From Halapricum desulfuricans (GTDB lineage Archaea > Halobacteriota > Halobacteria > Halobacteriales > Haloarculaceae): DNA of 64,000 nt. The translations under genes and the position numbers were made by a program. Of the stretch, positions 23,033-48,207 are shown in pieces. The notes below the pieces were generated by a model. It worked only from the letters and a program-made list of their open reading frames with translations, searched no databases and was not told the origin of the DNA. Where the stretch lies: contig NZ_CP064791.1 of NCBI RefSeq assembly GCF_017094465.1, positions 1,798,001-1,862,000 of the forward strand. Direction: 5' to 3'. The first letter of the stretch is position 1. Every line of letters begins with the position of its first letter.

Positions 23033-24442
23033 TCAGACCGCGCTGTCGTCTTCGACGAGTTGTCGCATCGACCGCTCCAGCTGACTGATCTCGGAGACCT
23101 GCTTGCTGTTGGCATCCGCGATCTCCTGGATCTCGTCGGCGGTATCCTCGGCCATCTCCGCAATCTCGTCCATCATCGATGCGACTTCCTCCGTCGAGGC
23201 TGCCTGGTCGTCGGTCGCGTTGGCGACCTCCTCCATGCCGGTCGTCGCGTCGCGAATCTTCTCGGCGATGTCATCGAGGGCCTGCATGGTCGCTTCGACC
23301 TCGGAGACGCCAGTCTCGATCTCGTCGGTCGCCTGTTCGAGGCTCTGGACGGTCGTCTCGGTGTCACGCTGGACGCCCTCCAGCATGTCCTCGATCGTCT
23401 CGGCGTGTTCCTGGGATTCCGTCGCGAGATTTTTGACTTCGTTGGCGACGACGGCGAACCCGTCGCCGGACTCCCCGGCACGTGCGGCCTCGATGTTGGC
23501 ATTTAGCGCCAGGATGTTCGTCTGGTCTGCGATGTCGTTGATGAGCTCGACAATCTCGTCGATCTCGTTGACCCGCTCCTGGAGACGCGTCACGTCGTCG
23601 GCCACTTCGGTCGCCGCCTCGTCGATGTTCTCCATGGCGTTCATCGCGCTCTCGGCGGACTCTTGGCCGTCGTTCGCGGCCTCGACCGCGTCCTCGCTCG
23701 TCTTGGCAACGTCATCGGACGTTGCCGCGATTTCCTCGACAGTCGCGGACAGCGTCGACACCTCGCTGTTTGCCTGCTCGATCCGGGTTGTCATCTCCTG
23801 GGTGCCATCGCTGATGCCGTCAGAGCTGTCGGCGACCTGTTCGGATCGCGACCGCAGTTCCTGGATCGACGAATCGAGGTCCCGGGCGACCTGCTGGCGT
23901 CGTTCCATATCGTCCTGTATCGAGTCGATCAGGCCGTTCACACGGGTCGCGATCTCCCGGAAATCCCCTTCGAGATCGGCCGTGTCGATCCGTACGTCGA
24001 GGTTCCCGTCGGTGGCAGCGTCGACAGTCGTGTAGATACGACGCCGCGTGACGACCTGTTCGACGATCTCCTGCAGGTCCCGTTCGGGACGGTCGCCCGG
24101 CCAGGGTCGAACGAGGTTCGACACGCCGGCGTCGAGCGCCATCTGGACGATGTCGTCATTACCGGTCTCGGAGATAAGGACGTACGGAATGTTCGACGGG
24201 CGGTCGTCGACTTCCTCGTACAGCTCAATGCCGCTAACCCATTCGTTTCCGCGCGAGTCGCGTACTTCGACGAAGCTCACGACGCAGATCACGTCGTTCG
24301 TATCGAGTGCAGTCCGGGCGTCCGGGACGGACGTGACTGTCTCGACGGGTACGTCGGCGGTCACCGGCTCCAGCGTTTCGACGGCATGCTCTCGGTTGTC
24401 CGGGCGACAGACGACGAGCACGCGCCCAGTGTTTGCGGCCAT
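23033..24442 (-). CDS. Soluble methyl-accepting transducer with N-terminal pseudo-receiver domain
   Basis: 469 residues with no membrane segment. Residues 1-125 look like a response-regulator receiver fold (RVLVVCRPDNREHAVETLEPV, PYVLISETGNDDIVQMALDAGVSNLVRPWP), but the phosphoacceptor Asp region reads CVVSFVEVRD and the C-terminal Lys is Arg, so it is probably not phosphorylated. A HAMP-like segment follows (DGNLDVRIDTADLEGDFREIATRVNGL), then a full-length signalling coiled coil. The tip motif IADQTNILALNANIEAARAGESGDGFAVVANEV, which contacts CheA/CheW, is complete. It should signal to the chemotaxis kinase from the cytoplasm. The start at 24442 is supported by a TATA-like TTTTTTAAGTATAG about 30 nt upstream; the frame extends to 24559 without need. 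Confidence 0.88.
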   Translation of the reverse strand: MAANTGRVLVVCRPDNREHAVETLEPVTADVPVETVTSVPDARTALDTNDVICVVSFVEVRDSRGNEWVSGIELYEEVDDRPSNIPYVLISETGNDDIVQMALDAGVSNLVRPWPGDRPERDLQEIVEQVVTRRRIYTTVDAATDGNLDVRIDTADLEGDFREIATRVNGLIDSIQDDMERRQQVARDLDSSIQELRSRSEQVADSSDGISDGTQEMTTRIEQANSEVSTLSATVEEIAATSDDVAKTSEDAVEAANDGQESAESAMNAMENIDEAATEVADDVTRLQERVNEIDEIVELINDIADQTNILALNANIEAARAGESGDGFAVVANEVKNLATESQEHAETIEDMLEGVQRDTETTVQSLEQATDEIETGVSEVEATMQALDDIAEKIRDATTGMEEVANATDDQAASTEEVASMMDEIAEMAEDTADEIQEIADANSKQVSEISQLERSMRQLVEDDSAV

Positions 24443-24602
24443 TATACGGCGTTGGGTGCTCACTATACTTAAAAAATACTCGTGATTATCACGTTTGACT
24501 CTTCGACCGGGTAATCGGGACGGCCAACACGACCCCGATTCGAGATGTGATACTCGCACGACAACGCTTATTTATGCGATCGTGTAACCGTCTGACAATC
24601 GA

Positions 24603-42887: not shown

Positions 42888-43862
42888 TTACTCCGGCACG
42901 CGGCTACGGTCGCCAGTCCCTCGCGTGAGACCGCTCGCGAGTGCGCCCTTCAACACGACGTCATCGCCCAGCGTCGTCAGCTTGATATCGGGCATGTTGA
43001 CGAAGACGTGATCTTCGAGTCGCTCTCGGACCGGGTCGAGTACGAGTTCTTCGTTGTTGAGCGCGACGCTGCCACCGACGTAGATGACCAGCGGCGCATA
43101 GGAGTGGATGAGGTTGGCGAACCCCTGGACGTTCCAGTCGTTGACGCGCTCGATGACGTAGTCGGCAAACTCGTCGTCGCCCGCGTTGGCATACACGTCG
43201 ATCGCCGAGAAGTCATCGCTCAGCACGTCCATATCGGTTTCCCAGTCCTCGGTCTCATAGAGGTGTTTCGCGTATCGAGGGATGTTCTGACCCGAAGCGT
43301 AGGCCTCCCAGTGACCGGGTTTTCCACAGCCACACTGCATGGCTCCGTCCGGGTCGAGCGTGATGTGCCCGACTTCGCCGGCGTTGCCGTCCCAGCCGCT
43401 GAGCACGTTCCCGTCGACACACACGCCGGCACCGATACCCGTCGAGATGGTGAGGTAGACCATGCTCGTGGGGTTCCGTTCACTGTAGAAGCGTTCGCCG
43501 ATCACACCGGCGACCGTGTCGTTGTGAAGGTGGACGTTGTCGGTTTCGACAAGATTCCGGATCGGCCCGACCAACGGAATCCGGTCGATGCTATCGGGCA
43601 AGTTCGAGGGGTTTTCGACGGCGCCGTCGGTCAGATCCAGCGGGCCGATCGAGCCGATTCCCACGCCCTGCAGTGCTGTCGGATCGACATCCGCGTTCGC
43701 GCACGCGCTGCGAAGGGTTTCGAGGACCGCCTCGGTGACTGCAATCCCGGTTGGCCCCTCCGGCGTCCGCTGTTTGTGAGAACCTAGTTCCGCGCCAGTC
43801 TCGTCGCCGACGATGGCGCGCACGTGCGTCGCGCCCAGGTCGACCCCTGCGTATGTGGCCAT
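42888..43862 (-). CDS. ROK-family sugar kinase (glucokinase-like)
   Basis: 324 residues; ATP-dependent phosphorylation of glucose or a similar sugar. Phosphate loop YAGVDLGATHVRAIVGDETG at the start, ROK motif LTISTGIGAGVCVDGNVLSGWDGNAGEVGHITLDPDG, and the metal-binding motif CGCGKPGHWEAYASG, in which the usual third Cys is His. Start MATYAGVDLG at 43862; nine more residues are possible. It lies next to pyruvate kinase in the same direction, but 186 bp separate them. Confidence 0.9.
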   Translation of the reverse strand: MATYAGVDLGATHVRAIVGDETGAELGSHKQRTPEGPTGIAVTEAVLETLRSACANADVDPTALQGVGIGSIGPLDLTDGAVENPSNLPDSIDRIPLVGPIRNLVETDNVHLHNDTVAGVIGERFYSERNPTSMVYLTISTGIGAGVCVDGNVLSGWDGNAGEVGHITLDPDGAMQCGCGKPGHWEAYASGQNIPRYAKHLYETEDWETDMDVLSDDFSAIDVYANAGDDEFADYVIERVNDWNVQGFANLIHSYAPLVIYVGGSVALNNEELVLDPVRERLEDHVFVNMPDIKLTTLGDDVVLKGALASGLTRGTGDRSRVPE

Positions 43863-43998
43863 ACTATCGGCGTATCGTCCTTGCCACACTTAACTGCATA
43901 TATTTACTCGCGCCGATGTGTGATTTTGATCTGACATTTCAGGACCGACACAACGCCATCAGAGCGGATGCACTCGAAGAAAAAGCGACTTTCGACCC

Positions 43999-44048: not shown

Positions 44049-45800
44049 TTATTCCTCTCGAGCGCCCACGACGTCACGGTACAGAACCGCTCGTTCGGCA
44101 TCCAGCGTGACGACAGTGCCGTTCTCGATGTCCGCAGGCACGTCCGCCTCGCCGATCATCGGCAGGTCAAGTTCGCGCGCGAGCACGGCAGCGCGACTGC
44201 CGGTCGCGTTGTCTTCGGCGCTGACGATACCACGGATATGATCGGCATCACCGGCGAGTTCGCCGTCGAACTCAGCAGGAATCACCGCGACTGCACCGTC
44301 CGGAACAGCCGAGAGGTCACCATCCTCGACACGGTGGATTTCACCCGTGACAATACCGCTGACGATCGGCGTCCCGGAGACAATCGTCTCCGCGGCCACG
44401 TGGATCTTGAGCATGTTCGAGGTGCCGATCCCGTCGAGTTCGGTCATCATCCCCGAGACGACGACCAGCGTATCGCCGTTGCGCGCGATGCCGGTGTCCA
44501 GTGCGGACTGGACGGAGTTCTGGATGATGGCGTCCGCACCCTCCGTCGTGTACGGCGTCGAGGTCGGGTGGATGCCCCACGAGAGGGCGAGCCGCCGCCG
44601 GACCCGATCGCTCGGGGTCGAGGCAATAATGGGAATACCAGGCCGGAACTTCGCGGCCTTCAGCGCGGAGTAGCCAGACTCGCTGGCGGCGACGATCGCG
44701 GTGGCGTCGACGTCTTCGGCGAGGAACCGGGCGGCGTGAGCCAGCGCGTCAGCCCGCGTGTCGTCGGCTTCGGGCACGCGTTGTTCGCGCAGTTCCTCGT
44801 ACTCTTCGCTGTTTTCGACTTCTTCGACGATGCTGGCCATGGTGTCGACGACGCGTGCGGGGTGGTTGCCGATGGCGGTTTCCCCCGAGAGCATCACCGC
44901 GTCCGTCCCGTCCAGGACGGCGTTAGCGACGTCGGAGGCTTCCGCGCGGGTCGGCCGCCGGGACTCGACCATCGAATCGAGCATCTCAGTCGCCGTAATC
45001 ACCGGCACGCCCGCCTGATTGCACTTCCGGATGATCCGTTTCTGGTAGAGCGGCACCACTTCCAGGGGCAGTTCGACGCCCAGGTCGCCGCGGGCGACCA
45101 TGATGCCGTAGGCCTCTTCGATGATGCTGTCGAGGTTCTGGACGGCACCAGCCCGTTCGATCTTCGCGACGATCGGAATGTCGGCGCCGAACTCGTTGAG
45201 GGTGTCGGCGATCTCGCGGATATCCGAGCCGTCCCGGACGAACGACGCCGCGACGAGGTCGGCACCTTTCTCGGCCGCGACTTTCAGCTCTTCACGGTCT
45301 TTCTCGGTGACCGTCGGCAGGCCGAGTTCGACGCCGGGGATGTTGACGCCCTTGCGCGCCTGAAGTTCGCCGCCGTTCTGGACGCGCGCGTAGACATCGC
45401 TGCCGTCGACCTCTTCGACGGTCGTCTCGATGCGACCGTCGTCCAGCAGGACCCGATCGCCCGCCTCGACGGCCGAGATGTCCAGCGACAACCCGACCGC
45501 CTCGGGCGTGGCGTCGTCGCCTTGATAGAATCGAACCCGGGAGTCGGCCTCGAGATGGATCGGCTCGTCGATGTCGGCGGTGCGCACTTCCGGGCCGGGG
45601 ATGTCGTGCATGACCGCGACCGGATGGTCGACCGATTCGTCGACCGCCCGAATCCGATCGATCGTCTCGCGGCGCTGCTCGGGCGAGCCGTGGCTGGCGT
45701 TCAACCGCGCGACGGACATCCCGGCCTCCGCCAGGGCCGTGATCTCCTCGGTCGAATCCGACGCCGGACCGAGTGTACAGACGATTTTCGCGTTACGCAT
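44049..45800 (-). CDS. pyk: Pyruvate kinase with C-terminal PEP-utiliser domain
   Basis: 583 residues; converts PEP and ADP to pyruvate and ATP. Starts MRNAKIVCTLGPASDSTEEI. Active-site elements: ARLNASHGSPEQRR, KIERAGAVQNLDSII with the catalytic Lys, and MVARGDLGVELPLEVVPLYQK. TEMLDSMVESRRPTRAEASDVANAVLDGTDAVMLSGETA is the conserved cation and substrate region. After the usual C-terminal domain there is a swivelling PEP-utiliser module (ASIVSG-like GTPIVSGIVTGEIHRV), giving about 100 residues beyond E. coli PykF, as in some archaea and bacilli. The frame extends to 45944 but needs no extra residues. Confidence 0.95.
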   Translation of the reverse strand: MRNAKIVCTLGPASDSTEEITALAEAGMSVARLNASHGSPEQRRETIDRIRAVDESVDHPVAVMHDIPGPEVRTADIDEPIHLEADSRVRFYQGDDATPEAVGLSLDISAVEAGDRVLLDDGRIETTVEEVDGSDVYARVQNGGELQARKGVNIPGVELGLPTVTEKDREELKVAAEKGADLVAASFVRDGSDIREIADTLNEFGADIPIVAKIERAGAVQNLDSIIEEAYGIMVARGDLGVELPLEVVPLYQKRIIRKCNQAGVPVITATEMLDSMVESRRPTRAEASDVANAVLDGTDAVMLSGETAIGNHPARVVDTMASIVEEVENSEEYEELREQRVPEADDTRADALAHAARFLAEDVDATAIVAASESGYSALKAAKFRPGIPIIASTPSDRVRRRLALSWGIHPTSTPYTTEGADAIIQNSVQSALDTGIARNGDTLVVVSGMMTELDGIGTSNMLKIHVAAETIVSGTPIVSGIVTGEIHRVEDGDLSAVPDGAVAVIPAEFDGELAGDADHIRGIVSAEDNATGSRAAVLARELDLPMIGEADVPADIENGTVVTLDAERAVLYRDVVGAREE

Positions 45801-46170
45801 CGCTACAGCCCTCCGCACCTGTCCAAAACCCGTTGGTTGATCCGTTGTACATACCTTGAGACTGCATTCCCCGGGATTATGAAGCTTGTTAGACCGCGCT
45901 CGTTCTGTGGCGAGTGACCGACCCACACGGATTCGGCAATCCATGCCGGTTTATCGTCGCTGTCACTGCCCCAGGTACTGTGAGATAATAGTATGACTAC
46001 GTTCCATTTCAATAGACGATACTGTATGGCAAATCTTTATTTATAGACTGGATCAACCCACTGCCATAGCGAGCCTGGTGACCGTCATGCCGACGATCAC
46101 TGGCTGCTGATGGGCGCACAACAGGATTACAGATGACGTATTCAGACAGGCACGCACACAGAGACCAACT
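45801..46170. promoter_or_regulatory. 370-bp divergent region between pyk and the tipless transducer
   Basis: No gene seen. On the right, AATCTTTATTTATAG (46030-46044) is the best TATA-like element, but it lies about 130 bp before the transducer start. The stretch 45990-46045 is markedly A+T-rich. Leftward promoter elements for pyk are not obvious; TTCATAATCCCGGGG around 45871-45885 is a candidate. Confidence 0.35.
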
Positions 46171-48207
46171 ATGAGCAGTGATCAAACCGACGGGTCGGAC
46201 AAGAGCTCGAGAGGCGGCGGGCTCATGGGCATCGTACGAAAGATACTCCCGGAATTCATTCGAAAGAGCTTCGCGATCAAATTCGGTATCGCGCTATTGA
46301 TAATCGGCCTCTCAGTCGGGGCGGCCGGATTCGTGGGATCGGAACTCGTCAAAGACGAGGTCCACGACCAGATCAACGATCAGTACAGCAATCTCGCGAA
46401 AAACGATGCGAACGGGCTACAGACGTGGGTCGCGGACAACGGCCAGGAGACGCTGCAGTTGACGAGGATTTTCGACGGGAAGACCGACGCGGAAGTTCAC
46501 GACTGGCTGTCGACCGAAAAGAACCAGGGCGGAGACTATCTGAGCCAGGGATACACGATCCACTACGTCAAGCCGGGCAACGGTTCGGACCCCGCACAGA
46601 TCGTCGCGTCCACCGACGGCGCACCCGATCGGTCCGCGATAAATCCGAACGAAAACAGGACGGCACCCGTTTCGGGTATCAACCAGACCGTCGCAGCCGA
46701 ACTGGCGGACCTGAAAGACTCCGGAGATACGATCAGGCTGACGGACGCGTACATCAGCGACGAGGGGACCTCACGGTTCGGAGGCATACATCTCGCATAC
46801 ATCGCCCTCGTCGATGACCCCGGTACCGGCGAACAGCGGGCAGTCATCTACTCGATCGCAACGGAAGCGTACACTGGCGGCTTTACTGCCGGTCTCGGCA
46901 CTGGTCTCGACAGTGGCGTCGCGATGGTCGTCGACGACGACGACCAGATCATCATGGAGGGGTACGCGAGTTCGATCCACGACTCGATCCACCAGTACGA
47001 CCAGTGGAAGAAACCGATCACGGAGGTCCGCAGCCAGAACAGCCGCGTCGGCATGGCATCGGACACGGCTGCGGGCGGTGTCCTCGATGGGTCCAAATGG
47101 GATCAGGCGACTAACTATAACCTCAACGGGGAGAGATACGTCGTCGGTGCGGCACCAGTCACCTCTGTCACCCTGAGCGGTTCGACCTCGGTCGAGGTCG
47201 ACTGGGTCGTGCTCGAACACACGAACCGCCAGACTGCATACGGTGACGTCGAGGCGGTCTCGAACCAGTCGCTCGCTGCGACCCTCGTCGGCGTCCTCCT
47301 GATCGGCATCTTCGGTGCAGTGCTCGGCCGGAACACGTCCAAGTCCATCGACCGGCTGAAAGGCAAAGCCGAGGAGATGGAAGAAGGAAACCTCGACGTG
47401 GACCTGTACTCGCCACGCGACGACCAGATCGGGCAGCTATACGGCGGCTTCGCCAACATGCGCGATGCGCTGCAACAGCAGATTGAAGAGGCCGAACAGG
47501 CTCGCAAGGAAGCGGAGGTATCCCGAGCGGAAGCGATGGAGATGTCCAACTACCTCCAGGACCGGGCCGACGAGTACGCGGAGATCATGCAGCAGTGTGC
47601 CTCCGGTGATCTCACCCAGCGGATGGAACCCGACGGGGAGAACGAGGCGATGGATCGTATCGCCAGCGAGTTCAACGAGATGATCGACGAACTCGAGAAG
47701 ACCACCGGACAGCTCAAAAGCTTCGCCGACGAAGTCGAGACCGCCGGCGAGGTCGTCCAGACCTCTTCGGAAAGCGTCCGGGACGCCTCCGAGCAGGTCG
47801 CGGATTCGATCCAGAAGATCTCCGACGACGCCTACGATCAGAAAGAGCGTCTCCAGGAAATCTCCAACGCGATGGACGACATCGCACACGATCTCGAAGA
47901 GTTCGCCGCCGAGAACGACGTCGACTTCGGCGACTCACTCGATCGCATCGAGGAGATCGCCACCACGCTGAACCAGGTCGTCGAACTCAGCGAGCAGACC
48001 ATGGCCGAATCCGAAAACGTCGCCGGCGCTGCCGAGGAGCAGGCCGCTGAACTCAACGAGGTCAGCCAGCGCGCCGAAGACCTCTCACGCTACGCGCGCC
48101 CGCTGCGGGAGGTCCTCGATCGCTTCGAGACCGAGTCCGAACACGAGTTCTACTTCCCGACCGGACCCGGCTCGGGCGAGGCCAACGTGCCTGACGACGA
48201 ACAGTAG
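46171..48207 (+). CDS. Transmembrane methyl-accepting-type transducer lacking the signalling tip
   Basis: 678 residues. Membrane segment 1 is at about residues 36-58 (FGIALLIIGLSVGAAGFVG), an extracellular sensor domain of about 300 residues follows, and membrane segment 2 is at about 367-388 (LAATLVGVLLIGIFGAVLG). Two HAMP-like units come next (SKSIDRLKGKAEEMEEGNLDVDLYSPRDDQIGQL and IMQQCASGDLTQRMEPDGENEAMDRIASEFNEM). The coiled coil begins and ends normally (ASEQVADSIQKIS, then AEEQAAELNEVSQRAEDL), but the middle, including the CheA/CheW-binding tip motif (the IADQTN..ALNA..EAARAGE type), is missing. It has a normal start and stop, so it is not a simple truncation. It probably cannot activate CheA itself. 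Confidence 0.85.
   Translation: MSSDQTDGSDKSSRGGGLMGIVRKILPEFIRKSFAIKFGIALLIIGLSVGAAGFVGSELVKDEVHDQINDQYSNLAKNDANGLQTWVADNGQETLQLTRIFDGKTDAEVHDWLSTEKNQGGDYLSQGYTIHYVKPGNGSDPAQIVASTDGAPDRSAINPNENRTAPVSGINQTVAAELADLKDSGDTIRLTDAYISDEGTSRFGGIHLAYIALVDDPGTGEQRAVIYSIATEAYTGGFTAGLGTGLDSGVAMVVDDDDQIIMEGYASSIHDSIHQYDQWKKPITEVRSQNSRVGMASDTAAGGVLDGSKWDQATNYNLNGERYVVGAAPVTSVTLSGSTSVEVDWVVLEHTNRQTAYGDVEAVSNQSLAATLVGVLLIGIFGAVLGRNTSKSIDRLKGKAEEMEEGNLDVDLYSPRDDQIGQLYGGFANMRDALQQQIEEAEQARKEAEVSRAEAMEMSNYLQDRADEYAEIMQQCASGDLTQRMEPDGENEAMDRIASEFNEMIDELEKTTGQLKSFADEVETAGEVVQTSSESVRDASEQVADSIQKISDDAYDQKERLQEISNAMDDIAHDLEEFAAENDVDFGDSLDRIEEIATTLNQVVELSEQTMAESENVAGAAEEQAAELNEVSQRAEDLSRYARPLREVLDRFETESEHEFYFPTGPGSGEANVPDDEQ

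Follow-up and report, generated by a model that had tools for sequence, protein, structure and literature searches.

A family of haloarchaeal membrane receptors derived from chemotaxis transducers and lacking the CheA/CheW-binding tip

Introduction

Conservation in chemoreceptors is highest in the tip that binds CheA and CheW. In Halobacterium salinarum the gene of BasT is paired with that of BasB and the gene of CosT with that of CosB, and Archaeoglobus fulgidus possesses an archaeal membrane receptor, Af1503, which contains a HAMP domain, has no classical output domain and ends at this one HAMP unit. In methyl-accepting chemotaxis proteins (MCPs) the tip region carries the trimer contacts together with the binding of CheA and CheW (PMC4692393, excerpt). 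Co-purification with CheA and CheW1 has been shown for both BasT and CosT, and the signals of the BasT/BasB and CosT/CosB systems are given in the same source (PMC3579733, excerpt). A survey of archaeal chemoreceptors, which takes its H classes from MiST, found class 44H to be dominant (PMC9680633, excerpt); a search of a kind that needs the signalling domain would presumably miss receptors devoid of the tip. No published description of tip-less transducers was found within the reach of the literature search, outside of which most subscription journals lay. A gene for a protein of this kind is described here from the window, i.e. the whole stretch of 64,000 nucleotides that was analysed.

Results

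Domain organisation of the tipless transducer

The gene (46171–48207, forward strand, as are all features of the protein given below) is an open reading frame of 678 amino acids with homologues elsewhere. Its sequence, start and stop, as claimed in an earlier note on this DNA, were confirmed. By eye, the hydrophobic stretch KFGIALLIIGLSVGAAGFVG represents the first membrane helix (46270–46350, about residues 34–60), at which a predicted helix comprising residues 34–101 starts. The extracellular sensor (46336–47259, about residues 56–363) has a predicted fold that matches double-Cache (dCache) domains. After the second membrane helix the protein continues with HAMP1 (47323–47478, residues 385–436), the best of the two stretches matched by the Pfam HAMP family (56.2 bits), and with HAMP2 (47557–47706, about residues 463–512, limits approximate), the second stretch. 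The N-terminal arm of a shortened hairpin (47638–47916, residues 490–582), the initial part of which lies within HAMP2, could be aligned to tip-bearing relatives. It is followed by a new turn (47917–47928, residues 583–586) in place of about 164 residues including the tip for CheA, CheW and trimer contacts, and by the predicted C-terminal arm (47929–48120, residues 587–650). The latter harbors the methylation-type motif GAAEEQ (48025–48042, residues 619–624), a putative modification site. The family peptide EHEFYFPTGP (48139–48168, residues 657–666) is situated in the predicted disordered C-terminal tail.

The full protein was modelled with AlphaFold2 from an alignment of 33 sequences (without L017, L115, L117, L133, L137, L145, L146 and L147), which gave a mean pLDDT of 75. 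Along the chain, the model displays a helix that begins at residue 34 and contains the first membrane span, a sensor of mixed alpha/beta structure, the helix 353–404 running into HAMP1, a break at residues 477–489 within HAMP2, the helices 490–582 and 587–650 connected by the turn 583–586, and a disordered tail. Structural matches to the sensor part, also found by Foldseek, comprise the dCache domains of the chemoreceptors PctD (7prq_B; Z 16.9, r.m.s.d. 4.0, 266 aligned residues) and PctA (5ltx_A; Z 16.9, r.m.s.d. 3.2, 236 aligned residues). With the two best cited matches spanning 236–266 residues at Z 16.9 and an r.m.s.d. of 3.2–4.0, the predicted sensor has a tandem Cache fold. A fusion of the Af1503 HAMP domain with Tsr (3zx6) is among the structural matches. 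The matches obtained extend over the sensor and hardly bear on the hairpin.

The MCPsignal family gives 16.2 bits in the 678-residue protein versus a Pfam cut-off of 34.6 and thus remains below threshold. Neither HisKA nor HATPase is among the 25 Pfam families with E-values up to 1 in this protein, and the NCBIfam histidine kinases listed for the HAMP and coil stretch stay far under their own cut-offs. A separate kinase output was rejected on these negative results and on the hairpin being followed by a tail of 28 residues alone. Elsewhere in the host genome, a protein with a related HAMP region (L003, C1:1202924–1204387) has, by eye, a histidine-kinase-like C-terminal part with an SHDLRNPL motif, a comparable input arrangement being joined there to an output of a third kind.

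The missing tip and the shortened hairpin

In a profile comparison with 12 tip-bearing relatives, the cytoplasmic part aligns with an E-value of 2e-68 and 40% identity on both flanks of a single large central gap, which, in combination with the tree described below, demonstrates common descent with tip-bearing transducers. The distance between HAMP2 and the AAEEQ motif is 140–143 residues in the tipless proteins compared to 306–311 residues in the tip-bearing ones (rows scored). A tip pattern matches 21 of 26 tip-bearing proteins and none of 40 tipless ones, and with a looser pattern the turn of the tip could be located in at least 24 of these 26 proteins. The conserved tip for CheA, CheW and trimer contacts is absent from the 678-residue protein and from all 40 tipless sequences read. 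Judged by these alignments, about 164 residues are absent from the protein, the CheA/CheW-binding tip included, and binding of CheA and CheW is not to be expected.

The arms of the tip-bearing hairpins are symmetric, with 157 and 158–163 residues in the 24 of 26 proteins that could be scored. The corresponding stretch comprises 151 residues in the 678-residue protein and 151–152 residues in 28 of 38 scored tipless rows; three further rows have 145–150 residues, and seven have 160–162, most likely due to other anchor matches. With the turn predicted at residues 583–586, the loss amounts to about 74 residues in the N-terminal and about 91 residues in the C-terminal arm, and the two arms of the tipless proteins are displaced by about 17 residues in register relative to one another. 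A symmetric cut would place the turn near residue 576. According to the model, the deletion is clean yet asymmetric, and a symmetric heptad deletion was rejected, since the arm lengths given by the predicted turn are unequal.

A second AlphaFold2 model, restricted to the C-terminal 230 residues, agrees with the full model and shows the hairpin with a pLDDT near 90; across the AlphaFold2 models this value ranges from about 78 to 91. The predicted cytoplasmic part thus consists of HAMP units and an antiparallel coiled-coil hairpin. In the earlier note, the protein had been read as retaining the sensor, two HAMP units and both ends of the coiled coil with the tip gone, and the Pfam matches, the profile gap and the tip pattern (0/40) bear this out. 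Its suggestion that a shorter hairpin could still form agrees with the structure prediction, which it had proposed for the C-terminal part and which gave a hairpin of two helices. Its description of the deletion as symmetric around the turn did not hold.

Distribution, origin and selection of the tipless family

The earlier note had also proposed to search haloarchaeal genomes for the same deletion. At a threshold of E 1e-55, 105 loci fall into the score range of the tipless proteins; they come from 69 of the 146 Haloarculaceae genomes and represent 10 of the 22 genera. Of these 105 genes, 40 were read and none has a tip. When the tipless profile was run against 391 class-level genomes, matches over nearly the full profile scored at least 233 bits and were confined to the Haloarculaceae, whereas the next matches were tip-bearing proteins with at most 169 bits, leaving a clean score gap. 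Among 392 phylum-level genomes (E 1e-45) just five proteins outside the family were found, all of tip-bearing length (open frames of 873–1108 residues); the two that were read both have the tip. Accordingly, no tipless protein was detected outside the family in either the class or the phylum sample. On annotated plasmids, 19 of the 20 matches listed are labelled 'methyl-accepting chemotaxis protein', all with less than 60% identity; these are probably tip-bearing and hence have no bearing on the naming of tipless genes. Both strain-specific deletion and assembly collapse, the latter raised in the earlier note as a possible artefact, were rejected in view of the 105 loci in 69 genomes.

In a tree of the output part, from HAMP1 to the first adaptation helix, the 40 tipless sequences split from 26 tip-bearing ones with support values of 98/95, and one origin of the tipless output was recovered in 99% of the bootstrap trees. 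This tree used all 66 rows given, which did not include the tip-bearing proteins of L131, L153, L154, L156–L158 and L162; another output-only tree omitted 12 of the 66 rows. On the evidence of these trees, the tip was lost once and long ago, and repeated independent loss was rejected because of the single tipless clade.

Comparison of the window gene with its relative L110 gave a dN of 0.06 and a dS of 0.53 for the output module (dN/dS near 0.11), and a dN of 0.58 and a dS of 0.96 for the sensor. As judged from these substitution rates, the output module is under strong purifying selection while the inputs change fast, and the gene is not decaying. That the tipless proteins form a conserved functional family is close to certain. 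In two genomes, a soluble tipless output module of 261 residues with an altered tail and no membrane part was observed (L145:5513–6295 and L146:5751–6533).

Exchange of sensors with tip-bearing receptors

A tree of the N-terminal part (sensor and HAMP units) contains four changes between the tipless and the tip-bearing label, at least three of them by starred branches. It was calculated without L145, L146 and L166, which lack an anchor, without L174, which is too short, and without the tip-bearing proteins missed by the pattern (that of L131, L153, L154, L156–L158, L162, L171–L173, L175 and L177). In L112, the sensor shows 61% identity to that of the tip-bearing L149 from the same genome, and the output is 83.5% identical over 200 residues to that of the window protein. 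At L131, the tipless gene and a tip-bearing one follow each other in tandem at a distance of 148 bp, and their sensors are 68.7% identical; this pair (L131:4533–8834) is divergent from ABC-transporter genes that resemble, by eye, the branched-chain amino-acid type. For the majority of tipless sensors, the sample contains no close counterpart that bears the tip. Together with the output-only trees, these pair comparisons indicate that the four label changes arose because sensors were exchanged with tip-bearing receptors, and the sequences thus point to an old tipless output module that has swapped sensors with such receptors. According to the earlier note, relatives with a like sensor and an intact tip would argue for a strain-specific deletion. 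Such relatives do exist (61% and 69% identity); they fit sensor exchange and not a recent deletion in one strain.

Adaptation-type motif and C-terminal tail

The motif AAEEQ is invariant among 27 compared sequences, and [AGT]AAEEQ is present in 36 of 40 tipless sequences. The AAEEQ/GAAEEQ of the C-terminal arm resembles the methylation regions of transducers and may represent a methylation site. However, due to the shift of the arms by about 17 residues in register, it need not be a working one.

The C-terminal peptide EHEF[YV]F is common to most members of the family, and the pattern E[HR][EK]FxF occurs in 31 of 40 tipless sequences, in line with the conserved-looking new tail of the earlier note. 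Within the last 40 residues, an F-x-F motif is found in nine of ten tip-bearing relatives outside the family compared to none of 16 tip-bearing proteins inside. Eight of these nine (L168–L173, L175 and L176) possess extended acidic tails with a conserved MFSF or VFTF peptide at the end, and L177 has EFDF. The MFSF/VFTF tails could possibly tether an adaptation enzyme; a common docking or tether function of all FxF tails would be a guess.

Gene neighbourhood

In the window, the tipless gene is flanked by a thioredoxin-reductase-like gene and by a divergent pyruvate kinase gene (44049–45944, reverse strand; Pfam PK 369 bits), beyond which lies a glucokinase-like sugar kinase gene of the ROK family (42888–43889, reverse strand; Pfam ROK 153.9 bits). 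No binding-protein gene is adjacent to the window copy. The order of pyruvate kinase and tipless gene is kept in several genera. A KDG kinase gene, located between the two in several other genomes, is absent from the corresponding interval of the window (45945–46170).

Neighbourhoods were read for 40 tipless genes at 38 of the 105 loci, picked to span genera; gene models rested on an ad hoc score of acidic composition, and names on a Pfam check for 20 neighbours and otherwise on inspection by eye. Six contexts recur: (i) KDG kinase, pyruvate kinase and glucokinase; (ii) xylose isomerase and xylulokinase on either side, in G006 with two tandem tipless genes between them; (iii) KDPG aldolase; (iv) pyruvate dehydrogenase genes; (v) a sugar ABC operon with a MalK-like ATPase, an SBP_bac_1 protein and permeases, in which the tipless gene comes first at five loci (L127 by Pfam; L130, L141, L143 and L147 by likeness); and (vi) an adjoining lipoprotein binding protein of the SBP_bac_1, SBP_bac_8 or Peripla_BP_6 family. 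The tandem genes of G006 are, by gene order and number, most likely Huta_2444 and Huta_2445 of Halorhabdus utahensis, which are drawn between the xylose isomerase Huta_2443 and the xylulokinase Huta_2446 and labelled putative methyl-accepting chemotaxis proteins, with no word of a missing tip in the part of the source available (PMC8551123). The flanking genes are transcribed alike on glucose and on pentoses (PMC8551123, excerpt), so that expression at this xylose locus appears not to respond to sugar.

A marker enzyme of central carbon metabolism lies within 3 kb of 17 of 40 tipless genes compared to 0 of 20 tip-bearing genes of the family (p 0.0005) and 0 of 11 genes of a second tip-bearing set (p 0.009), which consists of ten receptors outside the family and L174 inside (L168–L178). 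Since the nine marker enzymes came from the tipless neighbourhoods themselves and orthologous loci are not independent, the 17 cases are better counted as about six separate contexts. Lipoprotein neighbours, defined as lipobox proteins of 280–580 amino acids at most 400 bp away, do not differ in number (8/40 tipless versus 3/20 in the family, p 0.74, and 3/11 in the second set, p 0.68). Either kind of neighbour is present in 22 of 40 tipless loci versus 3/20 (p 0.005) and 3/11 (p 0.17); neither the sugar ABC operons of context (v) nor the binding proteins next to L116 and L117, all of which had been recorded when the neighbourhoods were read, enter these counts. By eye, 10 of the 40 tipless genes have no clear adjacent gene for sugar use or uptake (L111, with ABC-transport genes about 2 kb off, L112, L121, L122, L133, L134, L138, L142, L145 and L146). 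No che genes were seen beside any of the 40 genes, L131 adjoining a tip-bearing receptor, and no partner gene common to all contexts was found.

Chemotaxis genes in the host and its relatives

The host genome (2.88 Mb, 99.6% complete) encodes eight proteins above the MCPsignal cut-off and three matches to the CheW domain, one of them in CheA; a single locus comprises CheC, a CheY-like receiver, archaellin, CheW, CheA, CheR and CheF. Due to this che and archaellin locus, the CheW matches and the MCPsignal proteins, the cell is regarded as equipped for taxis. The gene at 46171–48207 is the sole tipless match in this genome. The window further contains a soluble MCP (23033–24559, reverse strand; MCPsignal 155.9 bits), whose N-terminal part resembles, by eye, a degenerate receiver domain.

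CheW is present in 67 of 69 genomes with a tipless gene, and in 53 of 53 of good quality, in a comparison of genome lists matched by hand within one lineage, in which the co-occurrence is not phylogenetically independent; 27 of 80 good-quality genomes with CheW have no tipless gene. In the draft genome G354 (89% complete, 60 contigs) the tipless gene is intact and adjoins the genes of KDG kinase and pyruvate kinase, and CheW, MCPsignal, CheR and archaellin were not detected in this incomplete assembly. In the draft genome G402 (88% complete, 380 contigs), which is not among the CheW genomes and yielded no archaellin at this completeness, CheR is present and the MCPsignal match lies below cut-off. 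Of the ten tip-bearing relatives that are closest among those outside the family, five (L168, L169, L170, L175 and L178) have che-like genes next to them by eye, as does the tip-bearing L174 inside. Since tip-bearing relatives adjoin che-like genes, the ancestor was probably an ordinary transducer.

Discussion

With its sensor kept, its tip lost and genes for sugar use or nutrient uptake often adjacent, the tipless protein seems to be an old receptor that has been given a different job. The preferred reading, to which a probability of about 0.4 is assigned, is that of a receptor for nutrients which descends from a chemotaxis transducer, is unplugged from the CheA/CheW output and acts as a modulator of taxis. 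Its parts differ in strength: coupling to CheA and CheW via a normal tip is very probably lost, sensing of sugars or other nutrients is likely, and an output that feeds the taxis system is proposed tentatively. The dCache sensor would perceive a sugar or a comparable carbon source from outside the cell, either directly or, in cases with an adjacent gene for one, via a lipoprotein binding protein, and the signal would pass through both HAMP units to the short hairpin. Lacking the tip, the protein would form no trimers of dimers and activate no CheA. Instead, the hairpin with AAEEQ and the EHEF[YV]F tail might engage the adaptation enzymes CheR, CheB or CheD, or pair with tip-bearing receptors; a metabolisable sugar would in this way tune the arrays with no kinase-driving receptor added. 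In Halobacterium, cells adapt when a transducer without methylation sites is stimulated, with methyl turnover on other transducers (PMC2857822, excerpt). The presence of CheW in 67 of 69 genomes fits a link to taxis, whereas the tipless genes are linked to genes of sugar metabolism and uptake and not to che genes.

This linkage is at the heart of the main alternative, possible but somewhat doubtful, according to which the output is independent of chemotaxis and goes to a partner that would dock to the new turn and the EHEF[YV]F tail and govern, at the transcriptional or enzymatic level, how sugar is taken up or broken down. The repeated association with glucokinase, KDG kinase, pyruvate kinase, xylose isomerase, xylulokinase, KDPG aldolase and pyruvate dehydrogenase genes speaks for such a partner, as do the first position in a sugar ABC operon at five loci, the intact copy in G354 with chemotaxis genes undetected, the conserved tail and the soluble output modules in two genomes. 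However, no partner gene is common across contexts, 67 of 69 genomes contain CheW, and the xylose genes flanking the Halorhabdus utahensis pair are constitutive (PMC8551123, excerpt). Applied to the family as a whole, this would mean that an MCP-derived lineage has left the CheA/CheW pathway and signals nutrients, via its short hairpin and conserved tail, to a non-taxis partner acting on the uptake or catabolism of sugar, still swapping sensors with chemoreceptors, which is held with the same reserve.

An unlikely role is that of a decoy, in which the tipless chain would heterodimerise with tip-bearing transducers of like sensor and lower their output in a dominant-negative manner. Receptors of both kinds with like sensors do occur within one genome (L112/L149 and the L131 pair), and a Tsr subunit of E. 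coli that keeps trimers from forming blocks the function of co-expressed wild-type subunits (PMC4692393, excerpt). Most tipless sensors, however, are without a close tip-bearing twin in the sample, and pairing with a cytoplasmic arm of 157 residues is doubtful due to the different register of the hairpin. The idea of a decaying transducer that lost its function with the tip and now drifts can practically be dismissed, for although the known functions of MCPs require the tip, a single old origin with persistence in ten genera, an output dN/dS near 0.11, a conserved tail and synteny all contradict decay.

A tip that was lost once, with the rest under strong selection in ten genera and often beside sugar genes, amounts to a natural test of a kinase-less chemoreceptor. 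Moreover, genes annotated as MCPs, such as the pair that Halorhabdus has between its xylose genes, may be something other than ordinary taxis receptors.

Compared to MCPs and the halobacterial transducers (Htr) of class 44H, the tipless protein shares the dCache sensor, the arrangement of membrane helices and HAMP, the adaptation-helix sequences and 40% cytoplasmic identity, but differs in the loss of about 164 tip residues, the missed MCPsignal cut-off, a tail of its own and unequal arms. Despite its clear descent from MCPs it is therefore not filed as a working MCP, since both the MCPsignal cut-off and the tip fail. As in the pairs BasT/BasB and CosT/CosB of Halobacterium salinarum, a gene for a lipoprotein binding protein lies next to some tipless genes; unlike BasT and CosT, the tipless proteins are without the CheA/CheW-binding region, and the window copy stands without such a neighbour. 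With Af1503 they have in common the archaeal membrane receptor carrying HAMP and no classical output domain, to which the tipless protein adds a second HAMP unit, a predicted coiled-coil hairpin and a conserved tail.
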